Assembly (NCBI GenBank): GCA_030749435.1
Contig: JASMKH010000003.1
Coordinates: 1-64,000 of the forward strand
Length of the DNA: 64,000 bases
Reading direction: 5' to 3'
Source: Phycisphaerales bacterium
Lineage (GTDB): Bacteria; Planctomycetota; Phycisphaerae; Phycisphaerales; SM1A02
Positions 1,402 to 16,703 of this stretch are shown one piece after another (within the stretch, counting starts at the first letter, position 1; each line of letters begins with the position of its first letter). Position numbers and translations under genes: made by a program. The notes under the pieces were generated by a model. That model was not told where the DNA came from. It searched no databases and saw nothing but the letters and a program-made list of their open reading frames with translations.

Positions 1402-1611
1402 TTGAAGGTGAGCTTGAGAGGTCGTGTTGGTGGGTGTCCAACAACGGCGTGTTGGTGGGTGTCCAACAACATTGTGGATGGCCAACACTGGCACACGGCA
1501 ATGGCAGTGGGGGGCAATCAACAACAATCATTTGAAGGAGAACTTCAGCGGCCGTGTTGGTGGGTGTCCAACAACGGCTCAGCAACGGCATGTTGGTGGG
1601 TGTCCAACAAC
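1402..1611 (+). repeat. Cluster of TGTTGGTGGGTGTCCAACA hairpin repeats (cluster 1)
   Basis: Four copies of the 21-mer starting TGTTGG and ending CCAACAAC lie at 1425-1445, 1450-1470, 1555-1575 and 1591-1611. Each is an imperfect palindrome: TGTTGG and CCAACA pair around loop TGGGTGT. A longer unit is duplicated at an offset of 130 bases: 1402-1448 and 1532-1578 both read TTGAAGG..., then the repeat. A degenerate partial copy may lie near 1479-1490. The cluster fills the 357-base gap between the convergent MBL protein and response regulator. The same core recurs at 16.2-16.35 kb. Long open frames crossing it, reading WWVSNN or VGGCP, are by-products of the repeat. Confidence 0.9.
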
Positions 1612-16112: not shown

Positions 16113-16224
16113 GTGGGGGCTCCTGAAACGATCGGTAGGCGGCCCCGCCAAGATAATGAGAATGAGTCGCAATAGCAAGGCGGTGGGGGTGGGTGGGGGT
16201 ACTCCGGCCGCTCTTGGGCCGAGA

Positions 16225-16350
16225 TTGGACACCCACCAACTCGCCAGAAAGCCGCTGCCTCGTGCAGGTGAGGCCTGTTTGGTGGGTGTCCAGCATTCCT
16301 TTCCTGTTGGTGGGTGTCCAGCATTCCTGTTGGTGGGTGTCCAGCATTCC
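16225..16350 (+). repeat. Second cluster of TTGGTGGGTGTCCA repeats (cluster 2), with an inverted copy
   Basis: One inverted copy (16225-16240) is followed by three direct copies of TTGGTGGGTGTCCAGCATTCC (cores starting 16279, 16307 and 16330). The 14-base core TTGGTGGGTGTCCA is identical to cluster 1 at 1.4-1.6 kb. The flanking half differs, with AGCATTCC here and ACAAC there. The inverted copy (16226-16239) and first direct copy (16279-16292) form a perfect 14-bp stem with a 39-base loop. Spacing of the direct copies is 28 and 23 bases. The last copy runs almost directly into the dockerin remnant. Confidence 0.9.
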
Positions 16351-16364
16351 TGGCCTGGGGGACT

Positions 16365-16448
16365 GCCAGCGGTGACGTCAACGGCGATGGCACGACCAAT
16401 GCCGATGACCTGCTGATCCTGATTGCGGCGTGGGGTGAGTGCCCCTGA
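16365..16448 (+). pseudogene. Dockerin-like tail remnant next to repeats
   Basis: In the frame of GGT at 16371 the + strand encodes ASGDVNGDGTTNADDLLIL, then IAAWGECP and TGA (16446-16448): one dockerin-like calcium loop with the usual WG-x-CP end. Upstream in this frame lie only the short repeats, with no start codon or secretion signal, so the body of the parent gene is missing. The tail keeps a downstream hairpin terminator. This suggests a deletion with an endpoint inside the repeat cluster. Confidence 0.65.
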
Positions 16449-16490
16449 CCGGCAACCTCTGAGATCACGAGTATGTTGATTGACCCCAGA

Positions 16491-16516
16491 GGGGCCCTCG
16501 CCAGTGCGAGGGCCCC
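16491..16516 (+). terminator. Hairpin terminator after the dockerin remnant
   Basis: GGGGCCCTCG (16491-16500) pairs perfectly with CGAGGGCCCC (16507-16516) around loop CCAGTG, followed by TTGGGTGCTTTT. It lies 43 bases after the remnant's stop and fits an intrinsic terminator of the lost + strand gene. Confidence 0.65.
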
Positions 16517-16703
16517 TTGGGTGCTTTTCAGGCCGCAGGCACCGGGCCGATGGGTCATTGACCGGACCGGCACCGCAGTTCACAAAAAGAGACTGGCCTG
16601 TAACCACTGGTCGTGCAAGAGGATGGGTCGACTGCCGGGTCGGTGTCTGGGCGTCCTCTGGGAAAAGTGCTGACAGAAACGCCGTCGCTGCGCGGATACG
16701 TGA

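Follow-up and report, generated by a model that had tools for sequence, protein, structure and literature searches.

Background

The closest known kind of element to the one described here is the TIRtron/TIRYT. In TIRtrons, Y1 enzymes are flanked by inverted repeats, some with the motif GGGGWSAS and some organized in dimers or clusters (Di Nocera et al. 2013, PMC3733652). Among the 26 published TIRYT cases, 20 belong to subclass 2.1 of the TnpAY1 enzymes and the rest to subclasses 2.2 and 2.5 (Quentin et al., PMC6006769); neither automatic nor manual search detected REP-like sequences near the genes of subclass 2.3 (Quentin et al. 2018, PMC6006769). Single-strand chemistry is established for IS608, ISDra2 and the E. 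coli TnpAREP (PMC8266576), not for the branch considered here.

We analyzed a family of short repeats in a draft genome of a Phycisphaerales bacterium (1.80 Mb, 84% complete; hereafter G000), starting from a 64,000-nucleotide stretch of contig C33 (the window). With a probability of about 0.77, these repeats are the dispersed end sequences of a TIRtron-type element with a long TnpAY1 near subclass 2.3.

Results and discussion

Two repeat clusters in the window

The first cluster consists of four direct copies of the repeat, described in an earlier note as near-identical 21-base units between two convergent genes; the 21-mer TGTTGGTGGGTGTCCAACAAC is the same in all four (span 1425-1612), with exact matches to TTGGTGGGTGTCCA at 1427, 1452, 1557 and 1593, all on the plus strand, and the neighboring genes do converge (Table 1). 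The same note had reported a partial duplication at an offset of exactly 130 bases and a recurrence of the core some 15 kb away, and both observations hold: the 47-nt unit at 1402-1448 is 89% identical to the one at 1532-1578, and four further exact copies of TTGGTGGGTGTCCA make up a second cluster, at 16226 on the minus strand and at 16279, 16307 and 16330 on the plus strand (16279-16343). At up to three mismatches, TTGGTGGGTGTCCA has 12 matches in the window against 4.8 expected (100 shuffles, maximum 11). The spacing, which the note had found unlike that of CRISPR, is irregular in the first cluster (25, 105 and 36) as it is in other arrays, and this excludes a CRISPR array.

Table 1. Repeat units of the two clusters and the genes next to the first, in window coordinates
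Feature	Position	Strand
Left neighbor of cluster 1: metallo-beta-lactamase fold protein (context)	432-1328	+
Cluster 1 array: four direct copies of the core GGTGGGTGTCC and the partly duplicated 47-nt unit	1402-1622	+
Copy 1: head, core (1429-1439) and tail	1425-1448	+
Copy 2: core at 1454-1464	1450-1473	+
Copy 3: core at 1559-1569, tail from 1570	1555-1580	+
Tail copy without core, AGCAACGGC, after copy 3	1581-1589	+
Copy 4: core at 1595-1605, tail from 1606	1591-1614	+
Partial tail copy without core, CTCAACGGC, after copy 4	1614-1622	+
Right neighbor of cluster 1: response regulator receiver domain protein (context)	1687-2085	-
Cluster 2, inverted copy, facing outward	16218-16239	-
Cluster 2, three direct copies with tail AGCATTCC	16275-16351	+

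No terminator or promoter was found within the cluster 1 array, and a role as a terminator was accordingly set aside; a search for structured RNAs around the array detected a nearby tRNA-Gly and nothing else. In G147, a related metallo-beta-lactamase gene has no array behind it but a different neighbor, which is weak evidence for an empty site; gene order in the nearest genomes is too poorly conserved to yield a clean empty site at cluster 1. Further along the window, an 85-aa frame at 2242-2499 on the minus strand ends in a dockerin-like tail, GDISGDGGVDVDDLLHVIEHWGPCP, with no obvious gene body.

In cluster 2, the inverted and direct copies form an outward-facing pair with no transposase between them. 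The possibility that such enzyme-less inverted pairs (C23, C44 and cluster 2) are internally deleted elements is unsupported; comparison of their interiors with the flanks of enzyme genes yielded no convincing similarity. Directly after cluster 2, a fragment encoding DVNGDGTTNADDLLILIAAWGECP and a stop codon (16374-16449, plus strand), without the rest of a gene, resembles the dockerin-like end of secreted planctomycete proteins and is followed on its 3' side by a strong inverted repeat at approximately 16488-16530.

A dispersed family of core-and-tail units

Far from being confined to the two clusters in the window, the core GGTGGGTGTCC is present in about 110 copies that form about 20 arrays across many contigs. 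A search of the genome at up to one mismatch returned 90 matches (58 exact and 32 with one mismatch), and the reversed control pattern had none in the whole genome; reading all array regions gave 110 copies of G[GA]TGGGTGTCC in the approximately 20 arrays. Over its 11 nt, the core hardly varies, with the search pattern itself allowing variation at one position, and letter counts over the 110 copies indicate a preferred GTT before it and a loose A[GA]C[AC]TT[GC] after it. Relative to genes predicted by a simple home-made gene finder based on codon usage, most arrays are intergenic and lie between genes in all orientations, with no preference for upstream regions. The exceptions are single copies at the ends of predicted frames and an array in contig C9 (see below); an array in C14, located inside a predicted frame upstream of TetR-type domains, probably precedes the true start of that gene.

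Each unit consists of the core and a 10-11-nt tail that tends to be array-specific, that is, alike within an array and unlike between arrays. For 40 of the 110 copies, the tail is found again no more than 40 nt away (mean of the shuffled control, 1.8), and for 23 of these 40 the recurrence is coreless, with no core in between. These coreless duplications are located mostly 3' of the core, at offsets of mainly 9-11 nt, and are present in relatives as well; the pattern suggests breakpoints at the border of core and tail and at the end of the tail. Replication slippage alone could produce tail duplication, and enzyme-free local expansion of a simple tandem repeat would fit the direct arrays, the short tandem duplications and the 10-11-nt tail repeats. 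Such a process, however, leaves unexplained both the recurrence of one 11-nt core at about 20 loci spread over many contigs and the outward orientation of the copies around three transposase genes (see below); we regard it as a very unlikely explanation of the family, even if slippage may contribute to array growth.

The C9 array comprises 11 copies that run antisense within a 538-codon frame, with every successive spacing a multiple of three. The linker that this array encodes repeats VDTHQQAAGASG-like stretches. The relative in G147 aligns with the two ends of the protein, but about 52 residues lie between these ends, compared to about 186 in this genome; an array was thus gained or expanded in frame in the linker. 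The 537-aa product of this gene (L016:833-2446, equivalent to G000 C9:38832-40445, minus strand) has no Pfam match; at the family level, relatives of it were found in 45 of the 61 genomes searched.

The transposase bracketed by the repeats

Both clusters in the window lack an adjacent transposase, as the earlier note had stated, but three other pairs of arrays (in C58, C3 and C15) each enclose about 1.3 kb containing a gene for a 312-aa protein, so that the RAYT-type transposase the note had proposed to look for is represented by Y1/HUH transposase genes. All three genes are intact, two of the copies being 85% and 73% identical to the third. At all three, the left copies of the repeat point left and the right copies point right, that is, outward on both sides, with the nearest motif 79-85 nt upstream of the start and 205-211 nt downstream of the stop.

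The 312-aa protein scores above the cut-off for the Pfam family Y1_Tnp, and its match to the NCBIfam model of REP-associated tyrosine transposases is sub-threshold. A search of PDB by sequence found no match, and the fold was recognized by structure comparison: the best match of the AlphaFold2 model (pLDDT 90.2) is 4ER8, the E. coli REP transposase (Z 14.5), followed by the IS608 and ISDra2 transposases (Z 7-8). N63-H64-x-H66 and Y181 are conserved, and none of the 28 aligned sequences departs from the HUH histidines or the tyrosine; the HUH motif reads NHLH and the Y motif YIDLNA, with the catalytic residues retained. The form of the Y motif (YxxLNA here, YxxxNP in the class) counts against the assignment. 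In the model, about 60 residues separate the HUH strand (64-71) from the next long core helix (134-152), and C-terminal helices extend to residue 296. Taken together, sequence and predicted structure indicate that the enzyme is a long TnpAY1, a putative Y1/HUH single-strand transposase that is RAYT-like and close to subclass 2.3; we call it '2.3-like', a label assigned from the published description of the subclass rather than from its profile.

The closest named full-length relatives come from Planctomycetota, Aliiglaciecola, Alteromonas, Shewanella and Marinomonas, a list that fits subclass 2.3 as described (Quentin et al. 2018, PMC6006769), and a full-length alignment with the Alteromonadales proteins was obtained.

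An outward-facing word at homologous enzyme genes

The association of the word with the enzyme extends well beyond this genome. In the flanks of 80 loci of relatives (Alteromonadales, Marinomonas and Planctomycetota), TGNNTGTC, a word represented in this genome by the core TGGGTGTCC, occurs 205 times facing outward and 24 times facing inward, with about 20 expected, so that the inward count is near the chance level; excluding the six loci from which the motif was discovered leaves 184 outward and 21 inward occurrences. For 54 of 55 relatives, picked among the loci with at least one motif, the nearest upstream motif is 60-145 nt from the start. The core class TGNNTGTC[CT] is found on either side of homologous enzyme genes from several phyla, with a variable dinucleotide that differs by lineage. 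A transposase relative in G173 (L025; G173 C39:32923-33561) is flanked by repeated GCGTGGCCGGT-like words instead of TGNNTGTC; its host genome nevertheless carries 51 copies of GGGTGTGTCC.

Genomes of the same family possess their own dispersed versions of the word, namely ATGCCTGTCCC, TGCGTGTCCG and GGGTGTGTCC. The version of the present genome, GGTGGGTGTCC, is shared with G181 (13 copies), G028 (21) and G063 (26) and has no copies in G048, G081, G105, G141 and G173. Conversely, ATGCCTGTCCC is found in G081 (79), G048 (22) and G060 (14) and has no copies in G000; TNTGCGTGTCCG is found in G013 (40) and G111 (14), and GGGTGTGTCC, in addition to G173, in G013 (21) and G111 (11). In G000, G081, G013 and G105, the word of the genome also flanks its own transposase gene, and all four copies in G105 are located at that gene only. 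G013 encodes at least eight enzymes of this kind and has two words, with GGGTGTGTCC on both sides of the gene in C17; this locus (G013 C17:81909-83647), together with C16 and C18, offers a natural pair of words for specificity tests. Core and enzyme are not always found together, as G028 has 21 copies of GGTGGGTGTCC in arrays (L177, L178 and L179) and no detected enzyme of this family; this is either an orphan repeat family or a case of a gene missing from the draft. On the tree of the enzymes, 22 changes of the middle dinucleotide were counted; the apparent coevolution of word and enzyme is drawn from the table of motifs by genome, and no claim is made from the tree.

These distributions bear on the possibility that the arrays are binding sites of a host regulator or a chromosome-organizing protein and that their linkage to the transposase is a coincidence. 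A nearly invariant core, intergenic position and an array layout suited to cooperative binding would all be expected of such sites. However, a coincidence sits poorly with a motif class that keeps a fixed distance from the enzyme gene even in phyla that are unrelated and with a word that, from genome to genome, varies along with the flanks of the enzyme genes found there, and the lack of an upstream preference speaks against regulatory sites. We therefore consider this explanation quite unlikely, although secondary, co-opted use of the arrays as binding sites may occur.

The hairpin is not the conserved feature

The earlier note had described the units as imperfect palindromes, and for cluster 1, as well as for single copies in some other arrays, this is a good description: the cluster 1 units fold better than shuffled sequences (for example, 1550-1580, z -4.4), which accounts for the palindrome reading. 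It does not apply to the family in general. The mean folding energy over all arrays is -4.46 kcal/mol for the real units and -4.51 when tails are swapped between arrays, and the respective values in relatives are -4.19 and -4.39; real and tail-swapped units thus fold alike, and the hairpin is not the feature that is conserved. Real flanks in this genome fold better than letter-shuffled ones (-4.46 against -3.75), from which it follows that there is a weak common pairing tendency, explained by shared sequence. Neither covariation nor excess pairing by position was detected over the arrays, letter counts over the 110 copies revealed no GT[AG]G foot beside a stem, and the core class of the relatives, TGNNTGTC, is non-palindromic.

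On the evidence of the tail swap, the pairing positions and the shuffles, and despite the folding of cluster 1, a hairpin REP was rejected as the defining property of the family. Of the readings offered in the note (REP-like elements, binding sites for a DNA protein or recombination hot spots), the comparison to REP elements stands in part: the repeats are dispersed, mostly intergenic and flank a Y1/HUH enzyme with the REP-transposase fold, but have neither the hairpin nor the GTAG foot. Intergenic dispersal, the link to this enzyme and the folding of cluster 1 are what canonical REPs, that is, hairpins with a GTAG-type foot that are mobilized by a canonical RAYT as structured DNA or RNA elements, would display; with the stem no better than after exchange of tails, and no foot, this interpretation is largely refuted and appears unlikely.

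Comparison with known systems

The TIRtron-type element that we favor shares with the TIRtrons/TIRYTs a Y1 gene with non-REP inverted repeats on both sides, and the dispersal of these repeats, in part in clusters. The published GGGGWSAS fits GGGGACAG, the complement of CTGTCCCC, which is the form found in the relative G081, whereas GGACACCCACC, the complement of GGTGGGTGTCC, matches it partly, not fully. Unlike the published cases, the enzyme here is 2.3-like and the arrays consist of a core with a variable tail.

With subclass 2.3, the enzyme shares its length (312 aa against a median of 325), the WE motif, a serine that follows the core domain, extra sequence inserted between beta3 and alphaC, a long distal C-terminal domain, many nearest full-length relatives among Alteromonadales, and the presence of several divergent copies per genome. 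It differs in the active-site motifs (YIDLNA against YVDLNP, NHLH against NHYH), with the middle residue of the HUH motif also varying among Alteromonadales relatives, and in having a clear repeat family and the outward bias of TGNNTGTC (205:24) where the published survey found no repeat.

The REP/RAYT systems of E. coli and Pseudomonas (4ER8) resemble this one in the enzyme fold, in the pairing of a single enzyme type with numerous short cognate elements that are dispersed and in the outward orientation of elements around the gene; they differ from it in the conserved hairpin, the GTAG foot, the absence of direct-repeat arrays and the usual single gene copy, compared to three here. IS200/IS605 elements share the Y1/HUH fold and active site, the outward ends and the presence of several genomic copies, but the present enzyme is twice as long (312 aa), has YIDLNA and no Y---Q motif, and its copies are 73-85% identical and lack subterminal hairpins.

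Among openly licensed papers, the ten listed of 56 matching the sequence ATGCCTGTCC deal with unrelated subjects, and no paper on a RAYT in Alteromonas was found. The kind of element is known. New within the openly licensed literature, with earlier description elsewhere possible, are a repeat family for subclass-2.3-like enzymes with lineage-specific words, an in-frame array within a gene, and the coreless duplication of the 10-11-nt tail.

Conclusions

Because the same tag brackets this family of single-strand DNA transposases, we read the core as a recognition site and infer that the repeats are mobilized by the enzyme. Under this scenario, the enzyme would recognize the core in single-stranded form, chiefly through its sequence, nick near the tail and transfer strands between copies; strand transfer would place copies at new, mostly intergenic sites, and neighboring copies would grow or shrink in number, yielding direct arrays. 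Cluster 1 would then be an array of this kind on which the enzyme acts in trans. Whether the scheme can be generalized is a matter of even odds in our assessment: 2.3-like TnpAY1s across phyla would use the short non-hairpin word TGNNTGTC[CT], the two middle bases of which would diversify from lineage to lineage along with the enzyme, and the words would spread as core-plus-tail units that form arrays when strands are transferred at the tail.

The repeats provide a candidate substrate for widespread relatives of REP transposases that have been described as lacking any, and render recognition testable by a simple single-strand cleavage assay. The hairpin, the hallmark of REP recognition, is perhaps dispensable in this branch, as the present analysis suggests, and the lineage-specific dinucleotide is a natural set for locating the residues that read the word.
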